Part shown: positions 35,719 through 57,479 of the stretch, in pieces
How the letters are laid out: each line of letters begins with the position of its first letter
Numbering within the stretch: position 1 is the first letter of the stretch
Source of the DNA: Celeribacter litoreus
GTDB lineage: Bacteria > Pseudomonadota > Alphaproteobacteria > Rhodobacterales > Rhodobacteraceae
Assembly: GCF_020165855.1 (NCBI RefSeq)
Contig: NZ_JAIUFY010000005.1
Coordinates: 186,001 to 250,000, forward strand
Length of the DNA stretch: 64,000 nt
Direction: 5' to 3'
Position numbers and translations under genes: made by a program
The notes under the pieces: model-generated
What the model was told of the DNA's origin: nothing
Database searches by the model: none
What the model saw: the letters and a program-made list of their open reading frames with translations, nothing else

Positions 35719-35788
35719 TCCCTTCCCCATGCGCGGCCTGCCTCACACCGAGCGGGCCGCGCCCTTTATACTTTCAAGGACAAGATCA

Positions 35789-39638: not shown

Positions 39639-39639
39639 A

Positions 39640-42302: not shown

Positions 42303-42364
42303 GGTCGTCTCCGGAAAATAGGCAGAACGGGCCGTTGGGCCCGTCCGGTTCGTATGGGGTACGA

Positions 42365-43399
42365 TTACTCGCCTGTAACGAGGGCGTGCACGGAGTCGGC
42401 GTCGAACTTCGGTTCGATGACGAGAGAGCCTGCGATGATCTCGTCCTGCACTTCCATCACTTCAGCCCAGACATCGTCCGGGATCTGCGGGCTTTTCAGG
42501 AGCGCAACAGAACCGTCTGCGAGGTTGATGTCGTAGTTCCGGGTGCCGAATTTGTCGGCGCGGATGTCTTCGATCATCGCCTCGTAAACCGGCGTCAGGT
42601 TCCAGAGCACGGAGGACAGGAGGTAGCCTTTGTCGATCGGGGTCTTGTCGCCGATCACGTCGATGAACATGACCTTGCCACCGTCGGCAGCCGGCGTGGT
42701 TTCCACAGCTTGCAGCATGCCGAAGGAAGAGCCGTTGCCCTGACCGAAGATGATGTCAGCGCCCGCAGCGATGAGGGATTCGGTTACGCGTTTGCCGCCT
42801 GCTGCGTCAGAGTAAGCAGCCGGTCCAATCACCGCATAGCGGATCACGAGATCGGGGTTCGCGGCTTTGACGCCTTCTGCAAATGCAGCGGATTGGGAGT
42901 TCCATGACGGCGGCTCACCGGAGGTGACGATACCAACAGTGCCGGAGCGGGTCATTTTCGCAGCAAGAACGCCTGCGAGATATGCGCCTTCGTGTCCGGA
43001 AGCGGTGTAGTCGACAACTGCGCCTTCGGTCAGTGCGCTCGGGCTGTCCACGATTGCGACTTTTACGCCGGCTTCAGTGCCGATTTCAGGGGCGGCGGTG
43101 TTGTAGCCACTGGCGTGTGCGATGATGAGGCCCGGCTCTTCTTCAGACAGTTCGCGCAGGGTCGGACGGACGTCGCCGTAGCCGAGGTTTTCCGCGACGA
43201 TGACCTCGACGCCGAGTGCGTCGCCCGCAGCTTTCGCGCCGTCGATACCCTGCTGGTTCCAGCCGAAGTCGGTCCCGGTTTCAGGCGTCAGGATCGCGAT
43301 GCTGGTGATCTCTTCTGCCATGGCGGACGTTCCCAGCCCGGCAGCAAGCGCGAGGGCCGAGATCAGCCGAACCGCACCTTTGGTGGTCTTGTTTGTCAT
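42365..43399 (-). CDS. BMP-family ABC transporter substrate-binding protein
   Basis: The 344-residue exported protein has a signal peptide (about 1-28, ending TSAMAEE) and the basic membrane protein (Med/PnrA-like) fold: ILTPETGTDFGWNQQGIDGA near residue 35, GLIIAHASGYN, VVDYTASGHEGAYLAGVLAA and VMFIDVIGDKTPID. BMP proteins bind nucleosides and, in some species, other heterocycles such as riboflavin. It is the first gene of the importer operon and lies beside the pyridine-type catabolic island, so an N-heterocycle is a reasonable ligand guess. Confidence 0.9.
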   Translation of the reverse strand: MTNKTTKGAVRLISALALAAGLGTSAMAEEITSIAILTPETGTDFGWNQQGIDGAKAAGDALGVEVIVAENLGYGDVRPTLRELSEEEPGLIIAHASGYNTAAPEIGTEAGVKVAIVDSPSALTEGAVVDYTASGHEGAYLAGVLAAKMTRSGTVGIVTSGEPPSWNSQSAAFAEGVKAANPDLVIRYAVIGPAAYSDAAGGKRVTESLIAAGADIIFGQGNGSSFGMLQAVETTPAADGGKVMFIDVIGDKTPIDKGYLLSSVLWNLTPVYEAMIEDIRADKFGTRNYDINLADGSVALLKSPQIPDDVWAEVMEVQDEIIAGSLVIEPKFDADSVHALVTGE

Positions 43400-43504: not shown

Positions 43505-43972
43505 GTGACCAACTTCATCCGCATTTTCTCCTCCGTCGCCTTCTTCGCTGCCGGCACTTTCTCGGCCGTTGCGCAGGGGCACGGCCCGACGCCGGAGCGT
43601 GGGACGGATGGCTTGTCGCCAGTTGCGTTTGAAATTGAAAACACTGGGGAATTGCCGCTCAGCTGCACAGTGAAGCTGGCGCATTGGTATTCGCTTGAAC
43701 TCGGGCTGGCGGCACATGGTGTCACCTTGTCTGCAACGCTGTGGTCCAACGCTGAGACGGGGGAAGTTTTCTTCCTCAATCCCATCGGGGACCAGATGCC
43801 GGTCGAGCGTCTATGGTGCGGTCTCGCCGGACGCAGCTGGGACACACGATTCGAGATGCCGCTCATCCGCCGTGCCGGAATTGCCGAGGAAGACCTGATT
43901 TTTTCTTGCGCAACATCGCCGGAGAATGCGGTCTCGGAGGAAATCGTAGAGACAGTCTGCGTTGCACCGTAA
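43505..43972 (+). CDS. Exported hypothetical protein with signal peptide (GTG start)
   Basis: The frame is open far upstream, opposite the binding-protein gene, but the GTG at 43505 after AAAGAGGCTCCTCCC gives a sensible 155-residue protein with a signal peptide: NFIRIFSSVAFFAAGTFSAV, cleaved near AVAQG. The mature part has four cysteines (SCTV, WCGL, SCAT, VCVAP), probably two disulfides, and no family I recognise. It is divergent from the ABC operon, across a 105-base gap. It could be a periplasmic accessory protein of the importer or of the island. Confidence 0.65.
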   Translation: MTNFIRIFSSVAFFAAGTFSAVAQGHGPTPERGTDGLSPVAFEIENTGELPLSCTVKLAHWYSLELGLAAHGVTLSATLWSNAETGEVFFLNPIGDQMPVERLWCGLAGRSWDTRFEMPLIRRAGIAEEDLIFSCATSPENAVSEEIVETVCVAP

Positions 43973-44520: not shown

Positions 44521-46014
44521 ATGACAGTTCAACAAACCTCTACAGACGCGGCCAAGCCCGCGCATCGCCTCAAGACGGGGGCAGAATTCAAGGCATCTCT
44601 CGATGATGGCCGCCAGATCTGGATCGGTGGAAAGAAGCTCGACAAAGTAACTGATGAGCCTGCGCTCTCTAATGGTGTCGATCTGATTGCAGAGATGTTC
44701 GACGATCAGTTCAAGCCGGAATTCGAAGACGCGACAACCTATGTTGATCCGAAGTCTGGCGAAGTCGTCAGCCGCGCATGGCAGCTTCCGACCACGGTTG
44801 AGGAGCTGGCTGACCGCCGCAAGATGATCGAATACACCAGCCTCAAGACCGCTGGCACCTTCGGTCGTCCGCCGGATCTTTCGCCTGCCATCGTTGCGGG
44901 TCTCATGGCCTATCAGGATGTTTTCAAAGAGAAAAAATCCATGATCGACGGCTGTAATCCGGATTTCGCGGAAAACATCGAAGCTTACATGGACTTCGGT
45001 CGGAACAACAACCTCACTGCTTCCGAGAGCTTGGCTGGTCCGCAAACCGACCGCTCGAACCCGAAAGCGGCAGAGATGGCGTTCCTTCGCGTGAAGAAGG
45101 CCACCGAAGACGGGATCTATGTCTCCGGCGCGAAAACCGTTGGTTCCATCGCCGCTCAGGCAAACGACATCTTCTTCACCAACCTTGGCGGTCTGACGAC
45201 CACTCCCCCTGAGGCCTGTGTTTGGGGCGCTGTGCCGATCAACACGGACGGCATTCGCATGATCTCCCGCGAGATGGTGTCGCAGCCGAACGCAGACAAG
45301 TTCGATCACCCGGTTTCCTCCATGGGTGAAGAAGCCGACCAATTCATCGTGTTCGACAACGTCTTCGTTCCCAAAGAGCGCATTTTCAACCTCGGTGATC
45401 CGGACGGGATGTCGTGGTATGGTCGCGCAACCGTTTTCGCGCACTGGCACGTTCTGACCCGCATGGCTGTGAAGGCCGAGCTGTTCGTTGGTGCTGGTCA
45501 ACTCGTCCTCGATGTGCTTGGCACGGGCAAAATCCCTGCGGTTCAGCAGATGCTCGGTGAACTCATCCAGTACGCACAAACGCTTCGTGCATTTGTCGTT
45601 GCCGCAGAAGCCACTCCGCAGCAGCTGACCTCTGGTGTTGTAACTCCTGACGTATCGATGCTGACCGCTGGTCGTCTCTATTCCATCGAGCATTACCCGC
45701 GCATCATTCACACGCTGCAGGAAATGTGTGGTCAGGGCCTCGTCATGCGCTTCGGTAAATCCGCGTTCGAGAACCCCGATATCGGCCACTACCTGCACGA
45801 TCTGCTCCCGGGTCACGGTGTCAGCGCAATGCAGAAAGAGCTCCTGATGAACTTCATCTGGGACATGACGAGCGGCTCTCTTGCTGGTCGTGTGGCTCTC
45901 TTCGAGAACGTGAACTCCTCGCCGGCTCCGCGCCTGCGTGCACGTCTCTTCGACGAAGTGAAACGCGAAGCATTCGTTGATCAGGTGAAAACCATCTCCG
46001 GCATGGATTGGTAA
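44521..46014 (+). CDS. HpaB-type FADH2-dependent monooxygenase
   Basis: The 497-residue protein belongs to the 4-hydroxyphenylacetate 3-hydroxylase (HpaB) family, the oxygenase part of two-component flavin monooxygenases that hydroxylate phenol-like rings. It has the N-terminal KTGAEFKASLDDGRQIWIGG, a central acyl-CoA-dehydrogenase-like fold (GIYVSGAKTVGSIAAQAND, FDNVFVPKERIFNL) and the C-terminal helical dimer region. Its reductase partner is probably the flavin reductase at 50326. In this island the natural substrate is likely a 3-hydroxypyridine rather than a benzenoid phenol. It begins the island with GGAGACGTT before the ATG and is separated from the next gene by a weak terminator. Confidence 0.87.
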   Translation: MTVQQTSTDAAKPAHRLKTGAEFKASLDDGRQIWIGGKKLDKVTDEPALSNGVDLIAEMFDDQFKPEFEDATTYVDPKSGEVVSRAWQLPTTVEELADRRKMIEYTSLKTAGTFGRPPDLSPAIVAGLMAYQDVFKEKKSMIDGCNPDFAENIEAYMDFGRNNNLTASESLAGPQTDRSNPKAAEMAFLRVKKATEDGIYVSGAKTVGSIAAQANDIFFTNLGGLTTTPPEACVWGAVPINTDGIRMISREMVSQPNADKFDHPVSSMGEEADQFIVFDNVFVPKERIFNLGDPDGMSWYGRATVFAHWHVLTRMAVKAELFVGAGQLVLDVLGTGKIPAVQQMLGELIQYAQTLRAFVVAAEATPQQLTSGVVTPDVSMLTAGRLYSIEHYPRIIHTLQEMCGQGLVMRFGKSAFENPDIGHYLHDLLPGHGVSAMQKELLMNFIWDMTSGSLAGRVALFENVNSSPAPRLRARLFDEVKREAFVDQVKTISGMDW

Positions 46015-46036
46015 CCCCTGACCATCCATGACCCTC

Positions 46037-46070
46037 GGGCGCGCCTTCCCTGAACTAGGGCGCGCCCTTT
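46037..46070 (+). terminator. Weak terminator/attenuator after the monooxygenase gene
   Basis: The 9-bp stem GGGCGCGCC (46037-46045) and GGCGCGCCC (46059-46067) with a 13-base loop is followed by TTT only. It probably allows partial read-through to the downstream genes. Confidence 0.65.
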
Positions 46071-46099
46071 GAGACTACTCCCTCCTTTCGAGCGAACTT

Positions 46100-46501
46100 A
46101 TGACTGACCAAGATGTGCTGACGGCATTTTATGCCGCCTATAATTCTCATGACGCGCAGGCTGCGACAGACCTCTACGTCGAGGACGGGCGCCATGACGA
46201 GATCGCGATGGGTAAATCGCGCACCGGGCACGCCGCTCTCAGGGAAGGACTGGAAGGATTTTTCGGCATGTTGCCGGACGTTGAGTGGACCTCGAAAGAG
46301 GTGATCCGTTCCGCCGATTGGTTGGCTGTCAGCTACCGCATGACCGGAACCTTTACCCCTCGGGCGAAAGAGGGCGCTCCGTCGCCGTCACCAAAGTCGG
46401 TCGCTCTGGACGGATTGCATCTGCTGAAAGTGGTCGGCGGCAGGATCGAAATCACACAAGATTATTGGAGCAAGGATGCCTTCCTTGCCCAGATCGGATA
46501 A
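46100..46501 (+). CDS. SnoaL-like / NTF2-fold protein
   Basis: The 133-residue protein has the NTF2-like pattern of SnoaL-type proteins: LTAFYAAYNSHDAQAATDLY at the N-terminus, GHAALREGLEGFFGMLPDV near residue 50, and WLAVSYRMTGTF followed by GRIEITQDYW. Such proteins act as small cyclases, isomerases or hydrolases, or as binding proteins; no catalytic residues can be named here. Two bases separate it from the first amidase gene, so it belongs to the catabolic operon. Confidence 0.8.
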   Translation: MTDQDVLTAFYAAYNSHDAQAATDLYVEDGRHDEIAMGKSRTGHAALREGLEGFFGMLPDVEWTSKEVIRSADWLAVSYRMTGTFTPRAKEGAPSPSPKSVALDGLHLLKVVGGRIEITQDYWSKDAFLAQIG

Positions 46502-46503
46502 AG

Positions 46504-47943
46504 ATGATCACTGAATACGACAGTCTCGACGCGACCGAGGTTGCTGCGCTCGTCGCGAGCAAGGAAGTCTCCGCAAAAGAAGTTTTCGAGACCGCGCTTG
46601 CCCGCATTGAAAAGCTTGAGCCGCATCTCAATGCGATCGTTCATCCGCACTACGATCTGGCCGAACAGGACATTGATGCCGGTCTTCCGGACGGCCCCTT
46701 TAAAGGCGTGCCGTTTCTGGTCAAAAACACGGGCATCGCGGTGCGCGGCATGGAGATGTCGACGGGCTGCCGTTTGTTCAAAGGACACGTTGATCAGTCC
46801 GACTGCACCCTCGTGGCGCGCTATCGTGCCGCTGGTGTCGTGCTCATGGGTAAATCCAATACCCCTGAATTCGCCCTGAGTTTTGCGACGGAACCGCGTG
46901 AGTTTGAAAAGACCCGCAATCCGTGGAATCTAGAATATGGGCCTGGTGGGTCGTCGGGTGGCTCCGCCGCTGCCGTCGCCGCAGGTCTCGTTCCGTTTGC
47001 GAACAGTTCCGACGGGGCAGGGTCCACGCGTCTTCCCGCTGCGCACACCGGTCTCTTTGGGTTTAAGCCGAGCCGTATGCGCAACCCCATCGGCCCAGTC
47101 ATGGTCGAGGGCATCGCGGGCATGTCGACGCCGCACGCGCTGACAAAGTCTGTGCGTGATAGTGCCGCTTTGCTCGATATTTCCGGCGGCGCGGACATTG
47201 GTGATCCCTACGCGCAGCCTGTAAAAACAGAGAGCTATGCCGCGTCGGTCAATCGCGATCCGAAGGCGCTCCGTATCGGTCTCACACTCAATTCCCCGCT
47301 CGGAACTCCTGTCGATCCGCAAATCCGTGCCCGTTGTGAAGAGGCCGCGAAGCTGATGGAGAGCCTCGGGCACTCCGTCGAGATAGTTGAGGATGCGGGA
47401 TATGATGCTCACGCCCTCAAAACGGCTTGGCAGGTTATTCCGGGTGTGAATGTTGCAAGCGCCGTGCTGGCCCGTGGACGCGCACTCGGGATCGACGATC
47501 CGATTGCAGAATTGGAACCCGTCAATGAGGAATGGATCCGCAAGGCGCTTACGTTGACGGGCATGGATTATCTCGCCTCGGTGAACCAGCTGCACGCAAC
47601 GGCGCGCGGCCTCGGTCGTTTCTTCGAGCGTTTCGATATTCTGATGTCTCCGGCAAGCGCTGAGCTCCCGCCGAAAATCGGTGAGCTGTCGAGTGAGAAG
47701 GGAACGCTCGACGCGTTCTATGATCGCTTCTGGTCGCACAGCCCATTCACTTGCGCTTTCAATGCCTCTGGTTTCCCCGCCATGAGTGTGCCGTTTGGTT
47801 TGTCAGAGGAAGGCCTTCCAATCGGCGTTCAATTTGGAGCTGCTCTTGGCGGTGAAAACCTCCTGTTTTCCCTCGCAGGTCAGTTCGAGCGCGCGGCCCC
47901 ATGGCGAGATATGCGCCCTGATCTTTCGGAGTTTCTTGCATGA
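46504..47943 (+). CDS. Amidase-signature family amidase 1
   Basis: The 479-residue enzyme has the amidase-signature Ser-cisSer-Lys triad: Lys in GVPFLVKNTGIAV near residue 80, the glycine/serine stretch GPGGSSGGSAAAVAAG near 143-158, and the nucleophile region SSDGAGSTRLPAA near 170 (where many relatives have GGSIR). It should hydrolyse a linear amide in the cytosol. In this island the likely bond is the acyl amide or carboxamide left after pyridine ring opening. The start at 46504 follows the SnoaL-like gene, and its stop overlaps the second amidase start. Confidence 0.88.
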   Translation: MITEYDSLDATEVAALVASKEVSAKEVFETALARIEKLEPHLNAIVHPHYDLAEQDIDAGLPDGPFKGVPFLVKNTGIAVRGMEMSTGCRLFKGHVDQSDCTLVARYRAAGVVLMGKSNTPEFALSFATEPREFEKTRNPWNLEYGPGGSSGGSAAAVAAGLVPFANSSDGAGSTRLPAAHTGLFGFKPSRMRNPIGPVMVEGIAGMSTPHALTKSVRDSAALLDISGGADIGDPYAQPVKTESYAASVNRDPKALRIGLTLNSPLGTPVDPQIRARCEEAAKLMESLGHSVEIVEDAGYDAHALKTAWQVIPGVNVASAVLARGRALGIDDPIAELEPVNEEWIRKALTLTGMDYLASVNQLHATARGLGRFFERFDILMSPASAELPPKIGELSSEKGTLDAFYDRFWSHSPFTCAFNASGFPAMSVPFGLSEEGLPIGVQFGAALGGENLLFSLAGQFERAAPWRDMRPDLSEFLA

Positions 47944-49232
47944 ACGATCTTCTGAAACTCGACGCGACCGACCTCATCGCAAAGGTCAGTTCCGGTGCGA
48001 TCCGTCATCGCGATGTGGCAGAAGCTTACATTGAGCGGATCGCCGAAAAGGACTCTGACGTCGAGGCCTATATCTACCATGATCCGGAGCAGGTGCGCGC
48101 TGCTGCCGATGCTCTTGATGCAGCGGGTGCGGGGCCTCTGGCGGGGCTTCCGACAGGCGTCAAAGATGTGATCGATACGGCCGATATGCCAACGGGCTAT
48201 GGCTCTGAGGCCTATGCCGGAAAGCAACCGTATTGGGATGCGCCCTGCGTGGTTCAGACCAAAGCGGCGGGTGGTCTGATCCTCGGGAAAACGGTCTCGA
48301 CGGAATTCGCGATGGCGAGTTCGGGCAAGACACGAAACCCATGGAACTTTGGACATACGCCGGGAGGGTCGTCGTCGGGGTCCTGTGCGGCTGTCGCCGC
48401 AGGAATGGCGCTCATGGCTTTCGGGACGCAGACAGCCGGTTCCATCATTCGCCCGTCGTCTTACTGTGGTGTGGTGGGCTATAAACCCTCTTTCGGTCTG
48501 CTTGAGCCAGCGGAAGTGAAAGTTCTCGCGCACTCACTCGATACGCTCGGTGTCGTGACGCGAACCGTGTGTGACGCGGCTCTCGTGGCTTCTGTCCTCG
48601 CCGGTCGCCCAAGTCTCTCACTCAGGGATGCGCTTCCAGCCGCCCCCCGCGTTGGCCTCTTCAAGACACCGCCTTTCGATCTGGCCGAAGATGGCACAAC
48701 GGAAGCATTGGACTACGCGATCAAGCGCATTGAGGCCGCTGGCGGAACGGTGGTCGAGATTGATGTGCCTGAGAACTTCGTGACGACGCATGACCTTCAT
48801 GCCGCTGTGATGGGGTGGGAAGTGACACGCGCTCTGTCTTACGAACGTACGGTCCTCTGGGATCAACTGACGCAGACAACGCGCGATTTTCTGACTGAGA
48901 AGGCGCTGGTCGATGCGCCCGCTTACGATGCTGCCTTGGCTGCACTTCCGAAGGTTCGGGCAGCCTTGGCTGAGGCGATGGCTGATGTGGATGTCTTGCT
49001 CGCGCCATCCGCTCCGGGTGTCGCGCCGGAAGGGTTTGCGTCAACCGGCGCCCCTGCGTTTAACACGCCCTGGACTCTTTTGCACATGCCCGCGCTTAAT
49101 GTGCCTGCGATTTTCAAAGATGGTTTGCCCGTTGGAGTGCAAGTGATCGGACGCGTTGGCGAGGATGCGCGCACGCTTCAGGCTGCGCGGTTCGTCGAGG
49201 CCGCGCTCGATGGTGCGAAAGTCGCGGTATGA
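47940..49232 (+). CDS. Amidase-signature family amidase 2
   Basis: The 430-residue second amidase is only distantly like the first. Its triad segments are LPTGVKDVIDTAD (Lys near residue 74), HTPGGSSSGSCAAVAAG near 136-150, and TQTAGSIIRPSSYCG near 160-175. Having two different amidases back to back suggests two successive amide hydrolyses, such as removing an N-acyl group and then the carboxamide ammonia. It overlaps both neighbours by four bases (translational coupling). Confidence 0.88.
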   Translation: MNDLLKLDATDLIAKVSSGAIRHRDVAEAYIERIAEKDSDVEAYIYHDPEQVRAAADALDAAGAGPLAGLPTGVKDVIDTADMPTGYGSEAYAGKQPYWDAPCVVQTKAAGGLILGKTVSTEFAMASSGKTRNPWNFGHTPGGSSSGSCAAVAAGMALMAFGTQTAGSIIRPSSYCGVVGYKPSFGLLEPAEVKVLAHSLDTLGVVTRTVCDAALVASVLAGRPSLSLRDALPAAPRVGLFKTPPFDLAEDGTTEALDYAIKRIEAAGGTVVEIDVPENFVTTHDLHAAVMGWEVTRALSYERTVLWDQLTQTTRDFLTEKALVDAPAYDAALAALPKVRAALAEAMADVDVLLAPSAPGVAPEGFASTGAPAFNTPWTLLHMPALNVPAIFKDGLPVGVQVIGRVGEDARTLQAARFVEAALDGAKVAV

Positions 49233-50329
49233 CGGAAATGAATCCTCTTGAGAACATAGGCTCGTCCGATCTGCGCAAAGGTGTGCAGTGGATCGGTTTG
49301 ATTGCCTTTGCGATCTTTCTCGCGTCCATACTCGGTCTGATCCATTTTCCGGCAGCTCCGCTTCTCGGTGCAATGATCGCCGGAATTGCCTTCGGCGCGA
49401 GTGGGAGCCCCATTCGCGTTCCACGTCCTGCCTATCTGCTGGCGCAGGGGGCCGCAGGTGTCTTCATCGCAACCTCCATGTCGCCTGCGATTTTTGTCGA
49501 TGCGGTTCAGGAGTGGCCTTTGCTCGTGGCGCTGACCATCGCCACGCTGACGGTCGCCTTCTCTATCGGCTGGATCATGAACCGGACGACAGGCATCTCT
49601 GAGGATGTTGCGGTTTATGGCAGCCTTCCGGGTATGTCGGGCGCGATGGTGATCATTGCAAACGAACGTGGTGCGGACGCGCGGATCGTCGCGCTGATGC
49701 AGTATGTTCGACTTGCCGCGGTAATTGTGTCTGTTGCTCTCTTCGCGTCGTTCTTGCCTGACAGCCAGATTGCGCAAATGCCGGATCGGGAAATCTCTCC
49801 TCTCTCTCCGATCGTCACACCTGCGCTTGCCGCATTGGCACTCGTTGCGGTGAGAATTAAGGTGCTTCCCGCTGCGGGGATGCTCATTCCGATGATCATC
49901 GGCGCCACGATTGAGGCAACGGGTTGGATGCACCTGCAAATGCCGCATCTCATGATCCTCGCGACGTTCGGAATTATCGGCCTCGAGGTCGGTTTGAAAT
50001 TCACCCGTGATGTCCTCGGCCATGTCCTTCGCCTCGTGCCCGCTGTTCTGCTCTCGTCTCTGGCGCTCATCGTGTTGAGTGCGGGTCTGGGTCTGGTGCT
50101 CATGGCCGTGACCGATCTTGATATGAAGACCGCACTTCTTGCAGCCGCGCCCGGGAGCATCGAAACTGTCGCGCTCGTGGCGATTGCGACCAAGGCAAAT
50201 GTTGCCGCCGTTCTGGCATTTCAAACCGTGCGAATGTTCACTGTTGTGCTTCTCGGGCCCTTCATTGTGGACCAACTCATGCGTCTTCCGATCTGGAATA
50301 AATGCGCACCTTCAAGGAGTGAGACATGA
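49229..50329 (+). CDS. AbrB-family integral membrane protein
   Basis: The 366-residue protein has about ten membrane segments in two repeats and matches the AbrB/COG3180 family (often called ammonia monooxygenase regulator, poorly characterised). Typical stretches are PAAPLLGAMIAGIAFG near residue 45, VAVYGSLPGMSGAMVIIAN near 128, and TALLAAAPGSIETVALVAI near 300. It lies between amidase and reductase genes with four-base overlaps on both sides, so it is part of the operon and may be a transporter for the substrate or a product. Function by sequence alone is open. Confidence 0.78.
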   Translation: MTEMNPLENIGSSDLRKGVQWIGLIAFAIFLASILGLIHFPAAPLLGAMIAGIAFGASGSPIRVPRPAYLLAQGAAGVFIATSMSPAIFVDAVQEWPLLVALTIATLTVAFSIGWIMNRTTGISEDVAVYGSLPGMSGAMVIIANERGADARIVALMQYVRLAAVIVSVALFASFLPDSQIAQMPDREISPLSPIVTPALAALALVAVRIKVLPAAGMLIPMIIGATIEATGWMHLQMPHLMILATFGIIGLEVGLKFTRDVLGHVLRLVPAVLLSSLALIVLSAGLGLVLMAVTDLDMKTALLAAAPGSIETVALVAIATKANVAAVLAFQTVRMFTVVLLGPFIVDQLMRLPIWNKCAPSRSET

Positions 50330-50844
50330 TCATGTCGACGATCTTTCCCGAAGCAGATATAACCGAAGGCCTGAAATCCGCGATGCGCCTCTGTGCGGCG
50401 GGGGTCACAGTGATCACCGCTGGAAAGGGGGACGAGCGACGCGGCCTGACCGCCACGGCGTTCACGTCGGTGACGATGGACCCGCCCACTGTGCTGGTCT
50501 GTGTAAACCGCAATGGACAGGCGCATGATGCGATTGTCGAGAATGGGCATTTCTGTGTGAATATCCTTTGCGAGGCATCCCGCGATGTTGCTGAGAGTTT
50601 CGCCGGGATGACCGGAAAGGAAGGCGCTGATCAGTTCGAAGGTTTCGAATGGATCGAGACCTCCGTTGGCGCCCCCGCCTATGCGTTCGCTCAGGCGGCT
50701 GTGGCCTGCACCCTGACGCAGGCGATGGAGGCCGGAAGCCACAGCATCTTTATCGGTGAAGTTCAGGAAGCCGCGACCAATCCGGATCGCAGCCCGCTTT
50801 TGTATTTCAACCGCGGCTTTCATGCCGTTGGTGCCCTCAAATAA
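50326..50844 (+). CDS. Flavin reductase of two-component monooxygenase (HpaC-like)
   Basis: The 172-residue protein has the flavin-reductase-like fold: VTVITAGKGDERRGLTATAF with TSVTMDPPTVLVCVNR near residues 25-65, HFCVNILCEASRDVAESF, and the C-terminal GEVQEAATNPDRSPLLYFNR. It reduces FMN or FAD with NAD(P)H for a partner oxygenase, here most likely the HpaB-type enzyme encoded 4.3 kb upstream in the same direction. The start overlaps the AbrB stop (ATGATCATG; a second Met two codons on is possible). Confidence 0.88.
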   Translation: MIMSTIFPEADITEGLKSAMRLCAAGVTVITAGKGDERRGLTATAFTSVTMDPPTVLVCVNRNGQAHDAIVENGHFCVNILCEASRDVAESFAGMTGKEGADQFEGFEWIETSVGAPAYAFAQAAVACTLTQAMEAGSHSIFIGEVQEAATNPDRSPLLYFNRGFHAVGALK

Positions 50845-50862
50845 CGTCCTAGGAGACCTCCC

Positions 50863-51897
50863 ATGTCGATTAGCAACGCAGACTTTGTCATTGCTTGGAA
50901 AAACGTCCTTGAACAATGCCAGCTCAAGCCGGGGGAGCAAGTTGCCATCCTGACCTCTGACGATAGCAACATGCAGATCGTCGAGTGCGCCCGTATCGCA
51001 ACCGGTTTGCTCGGCGGTGTTCTGACGATGATCAACCTGCCCGCAATTAACGGTGACAAGGCACTGTCGCGCGATAAATCCGGCTATGTCGGAAAGACAC
51101 CGCTTGCCTTCAATACGGCGGCGCTTGCGGGGCTAAAGGCGGCAGATCTCGTGATTGACACGATGCAGCTACTGTTCTCTCACGAGCAGGAAGAAATCCT
51201 GAAAACCGGCACGCGGATGCTCTTGGCCGTCGAGCCGCCGGAAACCATGCTGCGCATGATCCCGTCGCCGGAAGCGAAGAACAAGGTGATCGCCGCGAAC
51301 AAGTATATGGAGCCGGCGAAGGAGATGACTGTGACGTCCAAGGCGGGCACGGATTTCCGCTGCAGCCTCGGTCAATATCCTGTCCTGCTGCAATACGGTC
51401 TTGCTGACGAGCCGGGGCGCTGGGACCACTGGCCGAGCTGTATGATTGCGCGTTGGCCCGATGAAGGCAGCGCCGAGGGTGTGATCGTCATTGATGAGGG
51501 CGACATCCTCCTTCCGTTCAAGCGCTACGCCGCAGATAAAGTCATCCTGACCATTGAGAAGGGCTTTGTGACCAAGATCGAAGGCGGTTGGACCGCCGAA
51601 TATATGAAGTCGTTCATGGACAGCTTTAACGATCCTGACGCCTATGCGATGGCCCACGTCGGCTGGGGTCTGGAGAGCCGTGCGAGCTGGACGACGCTTG
51701 GACTTTATGACCGTGAGGCTGCGCTCTCGATGGATGCGCGGTGTTTTGAAGGGAACTTCCTGTTCTCGACCGGTCCGAACACCGAGGCGGGCGGAAGCCG
51801 CGATACGCCATGCCATATGGATATCCCGCTACGCGGTTGTTCCTTGTCGCTTGACGGCGTGCCGATGACCAAAGACGGTGTCGTCGTTCACGACTGA
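50863..51897 (+). CDS. nicX: NicX-type 2,5-dihydroxypyridine 5,6-dioxygenase
   Basis: The 344-residue protein closely resembles NicX of nicotinate degradation, an Fe(II) extradiol-like ring opener in the M29-peptidase-like fold. Shared blocks, from memory of the family, are ILKTGTRMLLAVEPPE near residue 112, LGQYPVLLQYGLADEPGRWD near 169, and STGPNTEAGGSRDTPCHMDI near 302. The three Fe ligands of NicX fall at identical positions: H265, H318 and D320; H189 is also kept. NicX H105 is replaced by Phe105, with a His two residues on, hinting at a changed substrate pocket. It would cleave a 2,5-dihydroxypyridine to an N-acyl maleamate. It is the last gene of the operon. Confidence 0.88.
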   Translation: MSISNADFVIAWKNVLEQCQLKPGEQVAILTSDDSNMQIVECARIATGLLGGVLTMINLPAINGDKALSRDKSGYVGKTPLAFNTAALAGLKAADLVIDTMQLLFSHEQEEILKTGTRMLLAVEPPETMLRMIPSPEAKNKVIAANKYMEPAKEMTVTSKAGTDFRCSLGQYPVLLQYGLADEPGRWDHWPSCMIARWPDEGSAEGVIVIDEGDILLPFKRYAADKVILTIEKGFVTKIEGGWTAEYMKSFMDSFNDPDAYAMAHVGWGLESRASWTTLGLYDREAALSMDARCFEGNFLFSTGPNTEAGGSRDTPCHMDIPLRGCSLSLDGVPMTKDGVVVHD

Positions 51898-51925
51898 TCT
51901 TGGACCTTTCGAGAATACCGAAAAA

Positions 51926-51950
51926 AAAGGCGGCCGTTTGGGCCGCCTTT
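51926..51950. terminator. Bidirectional terminator between nicX and the aminotransferase gene
   Basis: A perfect 10-bp stem AAAGGCGGCC / GGCCGCCTTT with loop GTTTG, flanked by an A run upstream and a T-rich tail downstream. It serves both convergent genes. Confidence 0.92.
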
Positions 51951-51959
51951 CTTGTTTCG

Positions 51960-53144
51960 TCAGGCGGCGATAACGGCATTCGCCGCAACAATTGCGCCGC
52001 CGAGGTCAAAATCTTTTCCTGTAATTTCGGACAGGGCACCGGCCAGCGCCGTCAGGGTGAGAACGGTATAGATCGGGTGCGCAGTCGGTCCCATATGTCC
52101 GACGCGAACAAGCTTGTTAAACGTTTCCGCCCGGCCCGACGAAATCATCACGCCGTATTTCTCTTTCATCGTGTTGCGGAGCACTGTTTCGTCGACGCCT
52201 TCCGGCAGTTTGATCGTCGTGCAGGTGGGCGAGGCGATTTCTTCGCGCGCGGCCCACAATTCAAGCCCAAGGGCTTTTACGCCCGCCCGCATGGCCGCCG
52301 CTGTTTTCGCATGACGCGCCCAGACATTTTGCGGCCCTTCCTTGAGATAGAGGTCGATCCCAGCCTCAAGTCCGTAAATCTCGGAGACGGATGGGGTAAA
52401 GGGGAATCCTTCGGTCGCTTTCCAAGCGTCTTTCCAGTCGAGGATAGACAGGATCGATGCGCGCGGTGCGGCGGGGTTTGCCTCCATCTTCGCCCAAGCA
52501 CGCTCCGACACTGTGAGGATGGAGAGGGCCGGCGGGCATCCGAGGCATTTGTTCGGCCCCGTCACGAGCACGTCGATGCAACAGGCCTCGACATCGACTT
52601 CGACACCGGCCCATGCCGACACGGAATCGACGACGTAGAGCGCGCCGTGTTTGCGCACGATCTGGCCGATTTCCTTGATCGGGTTGATCGTTCCCGAGGG
52701 GGTGTCGTGGTGGCACACCGCAACGAGGGCAGTTTCCGGATGTGCGGTCAGAAAGGCATCAACGTCGGCCGGATCAATCGCGTCATTATAGACGGTGCGG
52801 ATTTCGTGAAAGCTGCCCGCCCGCGGCTTCAACCATTCCCCGTAACCAGCGCCGTAAACGCCGGACGCGAGGTTTAGAACCGTGTCGTCCGGTGCCACGA
52901 GAGAATGCGCCGCGGCTTCGAGACCCAATACCGGCTCGCCCTGCAAAATGATTGGAGTGTCTTTGACGCCGAGGGCGCTTCCGACCTTTCTCATCACTTT
53001 TTCATAGAAAGCCATAAAGGTTGGATCGTAGTCGTAAAGAACAGGTTTCCCCAATGCGGAGAGCACTTCAGGGTAGCAATTGACCGGACCGGTGGTCAGG
53101 GTGAACAGGGCGGGCGCCTCTGCTGCAGTGTTCGTGGGTGTCAT
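51960..53144 (-). CDS. Pyridoxamine-pyruvate aminotransferase-like enzyme
   Basis: The frame opens at 53291, but the ATG at 53144 after AGGAAGATATCC gives 394 residues. The sequence closely matches the Mesorhizobium loti pyridoxamine-pyruvate aminotransferase as I remember it: TLTTGPVNCYPEVLSALG near residue 15, DYDPTFMAFYEK, GEPVLGLEAAAHSLVAPDD, VCHHDTPSGTINPI near 143, and the catalytic Lys199 in VTGPNKCLG. That enzyme converts pyridoxamine and pyruvate to pyridoxal and alanine without bound PLP. The relatives AgxT and PhnW are similar folds, so a related amine substrate is possible. It is divergent from gntR. Confidence 0.82.
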   Translation of the reverse strand: MTPTNTAAEAPALFTLTTGPVNCYPEVLSALGKPVLYDYDPTFMAFYEKVMRKVGSALGVKDTPIILQGEPVLGLEAAAHSLVAPDDTVLNLASGVYGAGYGEWLKPRAGSFHEIRTVYNDAIDPADVDAFLTAHPETALVAVCHHDTPSGTINPIKEIGQIVRKHGALYVVDSVSAWAGVEVDVEACCIDVLVTGPNKCLGCPPALSILTVSERAWAKMEANPAAPRASILSILDWKDAWKATEGFPFTPSVSEIYGLEAGIDLYLKEGPQNVWARHAKTAAAMRAGVKALGLELWAAREEIASPTCTTIKLPEGVDETVLRNTMKEKYGVMISSGRAETFNKLVRVGHMGPTAHPIYTVLTLTALAGALSEITGKDFDLGGAIVAANAVIAA

Positions 53145-53227
53145 GGATATCTTCCTATTTTTCTCGAGGCTTATGGGCGCGAAACGGCGCTCGCCGTCCT
53201 CTCTGCAGCCAGTGAGACACGAGCCCT

Positions 53228-53272
53228 CAACCAGACTCAACCATAATTTGACCATTTTATTTTTTTTGGTTG
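53228..53272. promoter_or_regulatory. CAACC/GGTTG repeats in the aminotransferase-gntR intergenic region
   Basis: CAACC occurs at 53228-53232 and 53238-53242 and GGTTG at 53268-53272, in the 225-base divergent region. The run CTCAACCAT...TTTTTGGTTGC repeats that at 44388-44410 before the monooxygenase gene. It is a likely site for the adjacent GntR regulator. Confidence 0.55.
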
Positions 53273-53369
53273 CGGTGCGCTGAAAATTCACTCAGTATTG
53301 TCGAAACCGGTGGGCTCTGTGTCATTCCGGATGCGAGTATTAATTGGTCTCTTGGGGGGAGTGAGTGCC

Positions 53370-54056
53370 ATGAGCGGACAGGAAGTTGAAAAGCGTATGG
53401 AAAAGGTTTCAGACCCGATCGAACATCTTCGCGAGATGCTCAAAGAAGCAAATGAATTGCCTCCGGAGCGGGTGCTTGCAGAACAGCTTGGCGTCTCCCG
53501 TCACAGCCTCCGGAAATCGCTGAAAACGCTGCGGGACAATGGGGAACTCACGCCTGCCAAAAGCGGTCGCCGTGCCAGCTCGGAGACGCGTTCGGCGAGT
53601 GCAAAGCTGGTCCAGTCGACGAACCCGCTCGAAGTAATGGAAATGCGCCTCATGATCGAGCCAGCGCTTGCTCGACTCGCGGCGATGCGCGCGTCACCGG
53701 ACGAGATCGCACGAATTCTGCAAACTGCGCATTCGCCAAAAGAAATGAGCCCTGCCCAGGCTGACCAAGATTTTCACCGCGCGGTTGCCGCGGGCTCCAG
53801 AAACAGTTTGGCATCTGAACTGCACATCCTGTTGCACCGAGTTCAAAACGACGCACGGCTGCGTTTCACCGATAGCGATGCGGATGAACGCACCACCGAT
53901 GAGCGTGTGAAAGCGCGCGACGCAGAACACCAACAGATCGCGGAAGCCATTGCTGCACGCGATGCAATTGAGGCTGAAAAGGCGATGTATGAACACCTCG
54001 AAAGAACACAACGCAAATTGATGGGCCTCGGCCTGAGGTCCGGCGATGCCGCGTGA
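53370..54056 (+). CDS. GntR-family regulator with FCD domain
   Basis: The ATG at 53370 after GGGGGGAGTGAGTGCC gives 228 residues. The N-terminal winged helix-turn-helix (about 15-75) has LPPERVLAEQLGVSRHSLRK with SLKTLRDNGEL. The C-terminal all-helical FCD effector domain (about 85-215) has MEMRLMIEPALARLAAMR and the metal/ligand-type His residues in DQDFHRAVA and EHQQIAEAI. FCD regulators usually respond to carboxylates or sugar acids. It overlaps the pyridoxine-oxidase gene by 11 bases, so the two are coupled, and it most likely controls this gene pair and the operon at 44521. Confidence 0.9.
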   Translation: MSGQEVEKRMEKVSDPIEHLREMLKEANELPPERVLAEQLGVSRHSLRKSLKTLRDNGELTPAKSGRRASSETRSASAKLVQSTNPLEVMEMRLMIEPALARLAAMRASPDEIARILQTAHSPKEMSPAQADQDFHRAVAAGSRNSLASELHILLHRVQNDARLRFTDSDADERTTDERVKARDAEHQQIAEAIAARDAIEAEKAMYEHLERTQRKLMGLGLRSGDAA

Positions 54057-55581
54057 GACCGATGTTCTGATTTTGGGTGGCGGCTCGGCCGGATGTATTC
54101 TCGCTGCTCGTCTGAGTGAAGATCCGTCCCGAAACGTGACGTTGATCGAAGCAGGGTCTGAGGCAACCGATCCTGATATTGCGAAGCCCGACATGTGGCC
54201 GTTCATTCAAGGCCGTGAGTTCGATTGGGATTTCGAGACGACCCCACAACCGGGCACGGCGGGGCGCAGCCATCGCTGGGCGCGTGGCAAGGTTCTCGGC
54301 GGGTCGAGTAACCTGCACGCTATGTTCCACGTACGCGGACACAAAGAAGATTTTGCACGCTGGGCAGAACTGACCGGCGATGACCGCTGGAGCTTTGACG
54401 GGCTTCTTCCCCATTTTAAGGCGACAGAAAGCTGGAGCAGTGGTGAAGATGAACTTCATGGTGGCAGCGGCCCGATGCCGATCATGCTGCCGACCGACCA
54501 AACGCACCCGCTTGTGAGCGCCTATATCAAAGGGTGGGAAGAGCTGGGGATGCCACGTCTCCATGACCATTGTGGTGAGGAACTCATCGGCACGGCGCCG
54601 AACGCCCTCATGATCCGTGATGGAAAACGGGTGAGTGTTGCGGATGCTTGGCTCACGGAAGACGTTTTGGCGCGTCCGAACCTGACGATTGTGAAAAATG
54701 GCCTCGTGCATCGCTTGGTCCTCGATGGATCGCGTGTTGCGGCGGCCGAAGTTGAGCGCAGCGGTGAAATCGAACGCTACTCCGGCGATCATGTCGTTCT
54801 GTCTCTTGGCGCGATCGGGAGCCCCCTGACCCTCATGCGGTCGGGCATTGGTGATCCGGAAATTCTGAAGGCGGCGGGCGTCGAGTGTGTGCTCGAACGT
54901 CGTGAGATCGGTAAGAACCTGCATGACCACTTGCTCGGTGCGGGCAATATCTATCGTGCGAAGCAACACGTCGGTCCGTCGAAACTCCAGATTTCCGAGT
55001 CTTTGAGTTATCAGGCTGAAGACCCGGCGCAGACGACCGGACGCCCCGACATCGTTGTCGGCTGTGTTTGTGCGCCGAGTGCGTCGGAGATGCTGACGGC
55101 GCCCGAGCTTGGCGAAGGGTTTACCCTCTTGTTCGGTGTGACCAACCCGACGAGCCGAGGTGAACTGTATATCACGGGTCCGAACGTGTCCGACCCGCCG
55201 GTGATCAATCCGAATTACCTTGAGACCGAACGGGACCGTGATCTGTTCCGCGTCGCAGTGAAGCGCGCGCGCATGGTTGGACAATCTGAGGCTATGTCGG
55301 AGTGGGTCGCAGAAGAGGTTCAGCCGACGCCAGCGGATTTAGAGAGTGACGCCGCACTCGATGCATTCGTCGCAAATGCCGTCATCACGCACCACCATCC
55401 CGTTGCGACCTGCCGGATGGGCGCAGATGCCGAGGCTATTGTAGATGCCAATCTGTCGATGCGAGGTCTCGACAACTTGTCGATCGTGGATTCTTCCGTC
55501 ATTCCGGAGATCACGGCTGGCCCGATCCATGCGGTCGTGATGGCCATCGCAGAAAGCTATGCCGCGTCCTACGAGGCGTAA
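54046..55581 (+). CDS. Pyridoxine 4-oxidase-like GMC oxidoreductase
   Basis: The 511-residue flavoprotein belongs to the GMC (glucose-methanol-choline) family and matches M. loti pyridoxine 4-oxidase as remembered: the FAD motif LILGGGSAGCILAARLSEDP, DWDFETTPQPGTAGRSHRWA near residue 60, RGKVLGGSSNLHAMFHVRG near 82, HLLGAGNIYRA, and the C-terminal active-site VITHHHPVATCRMG near 445 with AGPIHAVVMAIAE. The reaction would oxidise the 4-hydroxymethyl group of pyridoxine to pyridoxal. A different pyridine methanol is possible. The neighbouring aminotransferase gene supports a B6-type substrate. Confidence 0.84.
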   Translation: MPRETDVLILGGGSAGCILAARLSEDPSRNVTLIEAGSEATDPDIAKPDMWPFIQGREFDWDFETTPQPGTAGRSHRWARGKVLGGSSNLHAMFHVRGHKEDFARWAELTGDDRWSFDGLLPHFKATESWSSGEDELHGGSGPMPIMLPTDQTHPLVSAYIKGWEELGMPRLHDHCGEELIGTAPNALMIRDGKRVSVADAWLTEDVLARPNLTIVKNGLVHRLVLDGSRVAAAEVERSGEIERYSGDHVVLSLGAIGSPLTLMRSGIGDPEILKAAGVECVLERREIGKNLHDHLLGAGNIYRAKQHVGPSKLQISESLSYQAEDPAQTTGRPDIVVGCVCAPSASEMLTAPELGEGFTLLFGVTNPTSRGELYITGPNVSDPPVINPNYLETERDRDLFRVAVKRARMVGQSEAMSEWVAEEVQPTPADLESDAALDAFVANAVITHHHPVATCRMGADAEAIVDANLSMRGLDNLSIVDSSVIPEITAGPIHAVVMAIAESYAASYEA

Positions 55582-55638
55582 AGTTTGAGATCTGAATTGG
55601 CGCGCGTGCTGTTAGACCAGCCGCGCGTCATTTGATGT

Positions 55639-56241
55639 TCAGCGCATTTCGAGCAGCATATCTAGGCTGGTTTGCAGTCGTGCCTCTAGTGCCGCTTTGG
55701 TTTCGTTGGTTTGCATGTAGTCGCTACTAAGCGTCAGTGCATAAATCGCGATGGCGCGTAGGTGGGCGGTCTCTGTGTCGAACCCTGATGCTTCGAACTG
55801 TCGCGTGAAGAAGGCGATCCGCTCGGCGTCCACTTTCTCCAAGCTTGCACTCACGTTTTCGTCTGACTGCCCCCATTGCCGCATCGCGAGTTCGGTGGCC
55901 GAATCGTAGTCACCGAGAGTGACAAGTTCAACAACGTGCCAGATGCGATCACGCGGTTCCGAGTAGGCGTTCTCGACAAAGACGATGAGCGCGGTCGTTT
56001 CTCGTTTGCGCCAGAATTCGAATAGAGAAATCAGAAAGTCCTGACGATCTTTGAAGTGCCAGTAGAAGCTGCCTTTGCTGACTTTCATCGCGTTGCAAAC
56101 GGTGGCGATCCGCAGCCCCCCTGGGCCGGATTGGCCGAAGATCTTGAGGCCCGTCTCAAGCCAGTCCTCTTTTGAGAGGCGATCTTCTTTCATGCGCCCG
56201 GATGAAACCTGGGTGCGTGGTTCTTGGCCTGCTTGCCGCAT
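55639..56241 (-). CDS. TetR-family transcriptional regulator
   Basis: The protein has about 200 residues (183 if a second Met at 56193 is used). The helix-turn-helix spans about 25-70 with LSKEDWLETGLKIFGQSG, RIATVCNAMKVSKGSFYWHF and FKDRQDFLISLFEFW. The C-terminal ligand domain is helical and not assigned. It is divergent from the TauD-type dioxygenase gene, with a perfect palindrome between them. It probably represses that gene and itself, with the inducer unknown. Confidence 0.88.
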   Translation of the reverse strand: MRQAGQEPRTQVSSGRMKEDRLSKEDWLETGLKIFGQSGPGGLRIATVCNAMKVSKGSFYWHFKDRQDFLISLFEFWRKRETTALIVFVENAYSEPRDRIWHVVELVTLGDYDSATELAMRQWGQSDENVSASLEKVDAERIAFFTRQFEASGFDTETAHLRAIAIYALTLSSDYMQTNETKAALEARLQTSLDMLLEMR

Positions 56242-56395
56242 CGTGCCTGCAATCCTTTCGGGCGTCTTTGGCGTTCAATATCGGGGCTACATTTGCCCAA
56301 ATGCTAGTGCGTCGCAATGACCTGTCCATAAATCGGCGTTCGTTAGCGCAATCGCCAAGAATTTTCATTGACGGGTGTCAGACATATCTATCAAG

Positions 56396-56415
56396 TCCAT
56401 ACCATATGGTATGGA
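56396..56415. promoter_or_regulatory. Perfect 20-bp palindrome, TetR operator candidate
   Basis: TCCATACCAT followed by its exact reverse complement ATGGTATGGA, centred in the 257-base divergent region between tetR and the dioxygenase gene, about 84 bases before the latter. A perfect palindrome of this size in a tetR intergenic region is a classic operator. Confidence 0.78.
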
Positions 56416-56498
56416 GATTCGGATTGGCCCGTGATGGCCCCGTTCGCTTCCTGCCTACGCACGCAAAGATGAAATCTGAATGATGGAAGGACGAAGAC

Positions 56499-57479
56499 AT
56501 GAGCATCATCTTGACCGACAAAATTACGAACCCGGCTGCATGGGTCGCGGCGGATTTCGAGGCTGATCAGAGCTGGATCCATCCGCTGACCGAAGAAAAT
56601 ATCGCGGCGATTGATGCGGCCCTTGTGGGCCTTGAGGCGAGCGGGAAAAGCTTTCCCAAATTCACGCGGGAGGATTTCCCGCTTGGCAAGTTAGAGGAGG
56701 AACTGGCGCTCTGTGCCGACGAACTGGAGAGTGGGCGCGGCTTTTGCGTCCTGCGCGGATTGCCGGTTGAGAAGTATACTGATGAGCAAATCGACACGAT
56801 CTACTATGCAATCGGCCTCCACCTCGGGCAGCCCGTGGGGCAAAACCCGCGCGGCGATCTGATCGGGAAGGTGATGAACGTCGGGGACGTGACAAAGAAA
56901 GAGACGCGCGTTTACGAGACCAATCTCTATCTGCCTTACCACTCCGATCCGTCGGATGTTGTGGGCCTTCTGTCGGTGCGCAAGGCGCGGCAGGGTGGGC
57001 TGAGTAGCTTGATCAGCGTCGCGTCGATCTACAACGAGGTTCTGGAAAACCACCGTGAGTTTCTCGGACTCTTCTATCGCCCATGGTATTTCTCGCATCT
57101 CTGCGAAGACACGCCGAGCTTGTCGCCGATCTTTAGCGTGAACGAGGGTAAACTGAGCTGCCGTTATCTGCGCCAGTATATCGAACTCGGGCATGAGGTG
57201 ATGGAACAGCCGCTCTCCAAGGTTGAAGTCGAGGCGCTTGATCTCTTCGACAGCATCATCGGCAAAGAAGAACTGCGCCTCGACATGATGCTTGAACCCG
57301 GCGATCTGCAGTTTGCCAACAACTACGCGGTGCTGCATTCGCGCAATGCGTTCGAGGATCATGAAGAGCCGGAGAAGCGGCGCAAATTGCTCCGTCTGTG
57401 GCTGAAGATGCCGAATGCGCGGGTGCTTGCGCCGGAGTTCCCGGGGCGCAATGGCTTTCCGCTGCCGGACGTGGCCTGA
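56499..57479 (+). CDS. TauD/TfdA-type Fe(II)/2-oxoglutarate dioxygenase
   Basis: The 326-residue protein belongs to the TauD/clavaminate synthase-like superfamily. The metal motif HxD is in YLPYHSDPSDVVGLL near residues 150-155, the distal His is in NNYAVLHSRNAFEDH near 273, and the 2-oxoglutarate Arg lies in KLLRLWLKM near 298. These enzymes hydroxylate or cleave small carboxylates, amines or sulfonates. Nothing in sequence gives the substrate. The position next to the B6-type genes and its own TetR regulator suggest a linked but separately induced step. ATGGAAGGACGAAGAC precedes the start. Confidence 0.86.
   Translation: MSIILTDKITNPAAWVAADFEADQSWIHPLTEENIAAIDAALVGLEASGKSFPKFTREDFPLGKLEEELALCADELESGRGFCVLRGLPVEKYTDEQIDTIYYAIGLHLGQPVGQNPRGDLIGKVMNVGDVTKKETRVYETNLYLPYHSDPSDVVGLLSVRKARQGGLSSLISVASIYNEVLENHREFLGLFYRPWYFSHLCEDTPSLSPIFSVNEGKLSCRYLRQYIELGHEVMEQPLSKVEVEALDLFDSIIGKEELRLDMMLEPGDLQFANNYAVLHSRNAFEDHEEPEKRRKLLRLWLKMPNARVLAPEFPGRNGFPLPDVA

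Follow-up and report, generated by a model that had tools for sequence, protein, structure and literature searches.

We analysed a 64-kb stretch of DNA (the window, G000:C8:186001-250000) from the 3.66-Mb genome of Celeribacter litoreus (completeness 99.63%), and propose that it probably encodes a module for the uptake and breakdown of vitamin B6 that opens the pyridine ring by a third type of chemistry. The module combines a pyridoxamine-pyruvate aminotransferase (PPAT), a GMC flavoenzyme, an HpaB-type monooxygenase with its flavin reductase, a NicX-type dioxygenase, two amidases and an ATP-binding cassette (ABC) importer. The assignment of the cluster to vitamin B6 is very likely. We also regard the particular ring-opening mechanism as likely, though every reaction in it, their order and the intermediates are our inference. 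With somewhat more reserve, we favor the full picture of a third B6 pathway, in which an importer of a class unassigned to B6, C6 hydroxylation by HpaB and cleavage of a fully substituted ring by an E177Q variant of NicX act together. All genes of the original prediction, which had placed B6-type oxidation and NicX-type ring opening in one 13-kb block, were recovered at their positions as open reading frames, with Pfam and NCBIfam profile matches as support.

The gene set forms a real module. Scanning the HpaB alignment against the GTDB species genomes yielded 90 relatives, the best 80 of which were kept and correspond to 73 distinct loci. HpaB is at least 70% identical in 46 of them, and the 43 with at least 17 kb of DNA make up our core set, the three short loci being dropped. 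At presence thresholds that we set ourselves (for example 60% identity for NicX, 50% for PPAT and GMC, and 45% for the amidases), NicX, PPAT and GMC each accompany HpaB in 43 of the 43 core loci, which excludes a chance grouping and bears out the expected co-occurrence across genomes. Each amidase is present at 41 core loci, as is a SnoaL-like gene, and the importer binding protein and ATPase at 42; homologues of CMD are found at 28, and those of SDR2, MBL, PrpD and HIBADH at 18 each. The genes occur in three orders: that of the window, one with GMC-GntR-PPAT-importer 5' of HpaB, and one with PPAT-PrpD-HIBADH-SDR-MBL-CMD 5' of HpaB. On plasmids of Rhizobium daejeonense, Rhizobium sp. ACO-34A and Ochrobactrum quorumnocens, the set lies within ~14 kb, with identities of 73% for HpaB, 70-72% for NicX, 57-58% for PPAT and 52-56% for GMC.

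Outside this clade, the comparison set consists of the other 27 loci, some of them short, where PPAT is found in one, GMC in none and a NicX above 60% identity in none. When 14 genomes whose HpaB relatives are more distant, taken from 14 of these 27 loci, were tested genome-wide, PPAT was present in a single one. The lone exception, Komagataeibacter rhaeticus (L102), carries HpaB, two amidases, NicX (43%) and PPAT without GMC, and looks like a separately assembled version. In an HpaB tree of 77 rows, whose groups are labelled by identity and not by measured PPAT, the 47 rows of at least 67% identity fall on one side of a branch; its support is 90/49 with the Komagataeibacter row included and 100/99 for the 46 rows without it. 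Two Paracoccaceae loci (L046 and L047, from Pseudogemmobacter and Paracoccus) share the gene arrangement of the Rhizobium type and also fall among the loci of this type in the tree, which points to lateral transfer. Among the 390 genomes of the order sample, our own included, PPAT exceeds its cut-off in 4; a NicX of at least 80% identity occurs in 2 of the 390, both among these four, and as one of the two is the genome of the window itself, the overlap is supportive only. In the class sample, 8 of the 385 genomes contain PPAT and 5 have an HpaB match at E 1e-100; leaving aside our own, the remaining four are 38-39% identical.

The enzymes at the entry of the pathway point to B6 vitamers. The PPAT gene (51960-53144, minus strand) scores 631.6 bits against the NCBIfam model NF046070, with a cut-off of 600. 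Its open frame extends to 53291, the family match starts at residue 58, and the likely start codon is the ATG at 53144. The closest solved relative is the PPAT of Mesorhizobium loti (2z9u, E 1.8e-151), followed by PucG (E 7.6e-41). Residues E70, K199, R338 and R347, which align with E68, K197, R336 and R345 of the M. loti enzyme, are invariant in 44 of 44 relatives. The GMC flavoenzyme (54046-55581, plus strand) matches the M. loti pyridoxine 4-oxidase 4ha6 with an E of 1.7e-174 and 584.6 bits, and the "probable dehydrogenase" 3t37 with 584.7 bits, whereas the other GMC structures listed score at most 257.9 bits. Against 4ha6 it outscores even the GMC of the classical B6 cluster L122, which reaches 479.5 bits; its NCBIfam matches include no pyridoxine 4-oxidase model. 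H451 and P493 of the GMC are kept in 44 of 44 relatives, and we presume for them, as for the conserved residues of PPAT, the roles that we know from their families. Judged by sequence, this enzyme is a probable pyridoxine 4-oxidase. In line with the original prediction, PPAT, GMC and NicX find their best characterised matches among pyridine and B6 enzymes (2z9u, 4ha6 and 7cn3), and none of them among non-pyridine enzymes.

The NicX-type Fe(II) ring-opening dioxygenase (50863-51897, plus strand) aligns with NicX of Pseudomonas putida (7cn3) across residues 1-341, with 395.8 bits and an E of 1.2e-117; no Pfam or NCBIfam model matches it at E 0.001. According to PMC7910607, from which the residue roles are taken, P. 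putida NicX cleaves 2,5-dihydroxypyridine between C5 and C6, and its E177 binds N1 and O1 of the substrate. The window NicX keeps all iron ligands (H265, S302, H318 and D320) as well as the substrate residue H189. Two further substrate residues are altered, E177 to Q and H105 to F, both in 53 of 53 close rows, a set that includes repeated copies of our own genome and of genome G115. Neither change serves as a signature of B6: H105F is ruled out as a specific mark by the F in nearly all other relatives at 38-47% identity, and E177Q as a unique one since it is common to sister clusters. For LigB-type extradiol ring openers, two matches were found in the genome, none of them inside the window.

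The HpaB-type flavin-dependent monooxygenase (44521-46014, plus strand), our proposed C6 hydroxylase, contains the HpaB_N and HpaB domains (PF11794 and PF03241; 221.9 and 140.6 bits, cut-offs 35 and 25) and shares 97% and 93% identity with proteins of Celeribacter neptunius and C. ethanolicus, respectively. It stays below the equivalog cut-offs for 4-hydroxyphenylacetate (4-HPA) 3-monooxygenase, with 226.4 versus 480.2 bits for HpaB-1 and 148.6 versus 885.2 bits for the second model. Its top solved relatives tie, 7dbw (named 4-HPA 3-hydroxylase) scoring 231.6 bits and the 4-nitrophenol monooxygenase 9j9j 231.5 bits; tri- and chlorophenol 4-monooxygenases rank next (204.8-215.4 bits), and other 4-HPA 3-hydroxylases reach no more than 177.5 bits. 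The presence of 4-nitrophenol and chlorophenol 4-monooxygenases among these relatives supports the proposed hydroxylation, but because the nearest ones are mixed, similarity leaves the position of attack unsettled. The flavin reductase that would serve as its partner (50326-50844, plus strand; PF01613) is present in 38 of the 43 core loci. HpaB thus resembles the two-component phenol monooxygenases HpaB/HpaC, HadA, TcpA and TftD in both Pfam domains and in having a flavin reductase partner, but differs in lying under the HpaB-1 equivalog cut-off and in the substrate expected, a hydroxypyridine.

Two amidases of the AS family (PF01425) are proposed to perform the two hydrolyses of the ring-opened product: amidase 1 (46504-47943, plus strand) one of them and amidase 2 (47940-49232, plus strand) the other. 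The Lys-Ser-Ser triad is intact in both. Among relatives of amidase 1, K74 is kept in 57 of 57, S151 in 57 of 58 and S174 in 58 of 58, and the K75, S146 and S168 of amidase 2 are kept in 45 of 45.

Directly upstream of HpaB, and divergent from it, lie the importer genes (38706-43399), all on the minus strand. They encode permease 2 (38706-39638), permease 1 (39640-40722; PF02653), a double ATPase (40719-42302; PF00005, two stretches) and a PnrA/BMP-type substrate-binding protein (42365-43399; PF02608), the candidate binder of B6 vitamers. The combination of a Bmp domain (PF02608) with this ATPase and permease identifies a PnrA/BMP-type ABC importer. The ATPase and the binding protein are each present in 42 of the 43 core loci, and permease 1 in 25, the rest ending short of its place or lacking it.

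The same importer accompanies the classical B6 pathway. We examined the PPAT surroundings in six of the seven other PPAT-bearing genomes of the class sample, and found classical genes in three: L122, L126 and L127. L122 exceeds the cut-offs for pyridoxal 4-dehydrogenase (412 versus 325 bits), 4-pyridoxolactonase (490.8 versus 325) and FHMPC dehydrogenase (521.6 versus 500), its lactonase matching M. loti 3aj3 with an E of 1e-112, and L126 and L127 carry proteins 63-82% identical to these three enzymes. Inspected by eye, the listed open reading frames of L122 and L128 revealed no MHPC oxygenase. The importers of L122, L126 and L127 share 64-66% identity with that of the window in the binding protein, 58-67% in the permeases (58-62% for permease 1 and 64-67% for permease 2) and 52-54% in the ATPase. 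By comparison, the three other Bmp proteins of our own genome match these queries at 27%, at 31% or not at all, and their ATPase and permease neighbours reach 34-38%. L123 combines the importer (binding protein 68%) with PPAT; neither the lactonase nor FHMPC dehydrogenase is matched in the DNA examined there. That two pathways have in common only their upper end and this importer is most simply explained by the same substrate. The genes at 38706-43399 are therefore, on sequence evidence, a candidate importer of B6 vitamers. Among the characterised prokaryotic B6 transporters, PMC9997740 names PdxU, PdxU2/HmpT and P5PA; the window transporter would resemble these three in importing B6, but as a PnrA/BMP-type ABC system it is not among them.

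Taken together, these genes suggest the following pathway. B6 vitamers would be taken up by the PnrA/BMP-type ABC importer; the GMC would oxidise pyridoxine to pyridoxal, and the aminotransferase would convert pyridoxamine, with pyruvate, to pyridoxal. Some dehydrogenase might further convert pyridoxal to 4-pyridoxate, an alternative substrate of HpaB. HpaB and the flavin reductase would then hydroxylate pyridoxal or 4-pyridoxate at C6, 4-pyridoxolactone being a further candidate substrate. Enzymes of the HpaB type introduce their hydroxyl ortho or para to a phenol group, and among the carbons in these positions relative to the 3-hydroxyl (C2, C4 and C6), C6 alone bears a hydrogen and is hence the one open site. 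Hydroxylation of a 3-hydroxypyridine at C6 produces a 2,5-dihydroxypyridine pattern, as required by NicX. Next, the NicX homologue would cut between C2 and C3, which corresponds to the C5-C6 bond of 2,5-dihydroxypyridine; as the bond cut joins C3 to the methyl-bearing C2, an N-acetyl and not an N-formyl maleamate derivative would result. The two amidases would free acetate and ammonia from its amide. What remains would be a C4 di- or tricarboxylate with a hydroxymethyl group, or the corresponding lactone (a butenolide), and in some relatives the CMD-, lactonase-, HIBADH- and PrpD-like neighbours perhaps finish the remaining acid. We assign the substrate to vitamin B6 because PPAT, GMC and the importer all point to it; the HpaB-NicX pair alone is no proof.

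This pathway shares with pathway I of Pseudomonas MA-1 and M. loti a pyridoxine 4-oxidase-like GMC, PPAT and the PnrA/BMP-type ABC importer, but differs downstream. None of the three classical enzymes of pathway I reaches its cut-off in our own genome: 4-pyridoxolactonase (NF047925) has one match of 42.7 bits versus 325, SDR-type pyridoxal 4-dehydrogenase (NF047923) a best of 37 matches at 212.6 bits versus 325, and FHMPC 5-dehydrogenase (NF042925) a best of 5 matches at 162.7 bits versus 500. Among the ten proteins of the block that were scanned, the rest of the genome not being searched, none resembles MHPC oxygenase or E-2AMS hydrolase. Ring opening would be carried out by HpaB and an Fe(II) NicX, compared to one flavin oxygenase (MHPCO) in pathway I, and the amidase pair would stand in place of E-2AMS hydrolase. 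If the proposed chemistry is right, both routes release acetate, which is not new in itself since E-2AMS hydrolase also yields acetate, according to PMC3538738. In relatives with the Rhizobium-type arrangement, the lactonase-like protein is not supported as an orthologue of 4-pyridoxolactonase (35.1 bits only), nor the SDR as one of pyridoxal 4-dehydrogenase (129.4 bits against a cut-off of 325), although either may be an analogue. Compared to the nic pathway (NicX, NicD and NicF) and other routes through 2,5-dihydroxypyridine, the iron ligands of NicX are the same and ring opening would likewise be followed by two hydrolyses. The differences are E177Q and H105F, the N-acetyl product expected, a hydroxyl added by an HpaB-type enzyme, and AS-family amidases that replace NicD and NicF, members of other families.

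Several observations weigh against the proposed pathway. At its upper end, no pyridoxal dehydrogenase was found beside the cluster in the window; at its lower end, CMD, HIBADH, PrpD, SDR2 and MBL homologues are unmatched in the 64-kb window, to which the search for them was confined, and these genes adjoin only 18-28 of the 43 relatives. The ring-opening enzymes raise doubts of their own: 7dbw, the tied-best solved relative of HpaB, bears the name of an ortho-hydroxylating enzyme, E177Q of NicX also occurs in 13 sister-cluster rows without PPAT, and Phe at H105 is likewise present in most other NicX relatives of 38-47% identity. PMC7910607 describes the NicX of P. putida as specific for 2,5-dihydroxypyridine, whereas here a methyl-bearing carbon must be attacked. 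The genes can also be found apart. HpaB-NicX pairs exist without PPAT or GMC; PPAT stands without other cluster genes in the stretch examined of a Haematobacter massiliensis plasmid (L033:14986-16164, 64% identical); L124 and L125 carry PPAT and have no importer in the DNA examined; and beside the NicX of two Neorhizobium loci (L043 and L045) there is neither a flavin reductase nor either of the amidases. In the latter two, a second HpaB-NicX locus lies ~25 kb off on the same contigs.

In a variant of the B6 pathway, HpaB would act on pyridoxal or its hemiacetal itself, and the Rhizobium-type SDR and lactonase would serve a lower pathway that opens the butenolide rather than the formation of 4-pyridoxate. 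We consider this variant possible, though somewhat doubtful. In its favor, neither the Rhizobium-type SDR nor the lactonase of that type has a homologue in the DNA examined of 25 of the 43 loci, our own genome yields no lactonase or pyridoxal 4-dehydrogenase of the classical kind above the cut-off, and the Rhizobium-type proteins only weakly resemble the classical lactonase (35.1 bits) and dehydrogenase (129.4 versus 325). Decarboxylases of the CMD type, moreover, act on carboxylated lactones. However, 4-pyridoxate could come from a housekeeping aldehyde dehydrogenase, an SSADH-type enzyme being encoded at 34261-35718, and an SDR that adjoins the GMC in genome G115 shares 35% identity with the L122 pyridoxal 4-dehydrogenase; the inventory of other dehydrogenases across the loci is incomplete.

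It is unlikely that the cluster degrades some other 3-hydroxypyridine, such as a pyridine alkaloid or a B6 analogue, and merely uses B6-like enzymes. Sister clusters without PPAT and GMC (HpaB 60-64%, NicX 38-43%) must have another substrate, so the HpaB-NicX pair is not specific for B6, and the same importer type is found in three of them. Nevertheless, a PPAT above its equivalog cut-off and an importer common to the classical B6 clusters count against this explanation. Still less probable is a role in pathway II, the 5-pyridoxate route long known from Pseudomonas IA and Arthrobacter Cr-7. To our knowledge, the genes of that route are unassigned, and the GMC could be a pyridoxine 5-dehydrogenase; but PPAT, which all 43 loci carry, yields pyridoxal and does not fit a route through isopyridoxal, and the ring opener for 5-pyridoxate is a single flavoprotein, not an HpaB with an Fe(II) NicX. 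Ordinary salvage, in which PPAT and GMC would interconvert B6 vitamers beside an unrelated HpaB-NicX pair, is highly improbable: PPAT can stand alone, as on the Haematobacter plasmid, but both halves occur together in 43 of 43 loci with three gene orders, and PPAT is otherwise rare (8 of 385 and 4 of 390 genomes).

The sister clusters (L076-L085, L089, L091, L092, L107 and L108) have an HpaB of 60-64% identity, no PPAT or GMC and, in most cases, a NicX of 38-43%. L077, L078 and L107 possess the same importer type, and L107 also an isochorismatase-type hydrolase. They probably represent pathways for other substituted hydroxypyridines. One of them, in Pseudooceanicola (L078:9980-20491), contains two HpaB genes and one NicX in a single cluster. 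HpaB (48-49%) and NicX (46-47%) also occur together in loci of Bacillus, Neobacillus, Aneurinibacillus and Brevibacillus (L094-L099, L101 and L103-L105; for example Neobacillus niacini), none of which has a PPAT or GMC match. Furthermore, two contigs of metagenome-assembled genomes labelled Enterobacterales (L054 and L066) carry most of the cluster, L066 without the SnoaL-like gene, reflecting either gammaproteobacterial transfer or misbinned contigs.

Five further elements were absent from the gene list of the original prediction: the importer, a SnoaL/NTF2-like gene, a GntR/FCD-type regulator, a small secreted protein and a TetR gene. The SnoaL/NTF2-like protein (46100-46501, plus strand; PF12680/PF07366) is encoded in 41 of the 43 core loci, and the GntR/FCD-type regulator (53298-54056, plus strand; PF07729, PF00392), whose true start is probably further in, in 25. 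An AbrB-type membrane protein (49229-50329, plus strand; PF05145; TIGR03082 220.7 bits, cut-off 94.7) appears accessory, with 15 of 43 loci. Between the importer and HpaB lies the gene of a small conserved secreted protein (43505-43972, plus strand, start codon inferred), present in 42 of 43 loci. It has no Pfam or NCBIfam match; C54, H60, W61, C105, G106, C135 and C152 are invariant in 25 sequences, with an A-H-W motif and four cysteines. Its predicted structure is all-beta with a mean pLDDT of 88.0, and a fold search with this model gave 0 of 1670 matches at E ≤0.001, those listed being generic beta folds with a query-normalised TM-score of at most 0.40.

The TauD-type dioxygenase (56499-57479; PF02668), which the original prediction had counted in the block, turned out not to belong to the cluster, nor does the TetR gene (55639-56241). 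At E 1e-8, tblastn matched neither of them in any of the 73 loci, among which those with the gene order of the window end just after GMC. In genome G115, the DNA beyond GMC contains no TauD match, and among four related genomes TauD is unmatched at E 1e-20 in two and lies away from the cluster in the other two. Its nearest solved relative is FrbJ (E 7.5e-50). The predicted island of B6-type oxidation and NicX-type opening thus holds in its core, given the PPAT, GMC and NicX matches, the co-occurrence in all 43 loci and the importer common to the classical clusters, but without TauD. A few kb from the importer, an SSADH-type aldehyde dehydrogenase gene (34261-35718; TIGR01780 712.6 bits, cut-off 646.35) and an Fe-alcohol dehydrogenase gene lie beside an IclR regulator (34261-36955), and are possible lower-pathway genes.

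In a literature search of open-licence papers, none of the matches listed linked HpaB or NicX to B6 breakdown. If correct, the pathway proposed here would be a third route of B6 breakdown beside the two listed in PMC3538738. It would account for the use of vitamin B6 as food by many bacteria of sea and soil, among Rhodobacterales, Rhizobiales and some others, and would provide better names for genes that currently bear labels such as 2,5-dihydroxypyridine dioxygenase or 4-hydroxyphenylacetate 3-hydroxylase. A NicX that acts on a fully substituted ring would widen the reach of this iron enzyme family, and the sister clusters, which pair HpaB with NicX but lack PPAT, hint that further pathways of this kind serve other substituted 3-hydroxypyridines.

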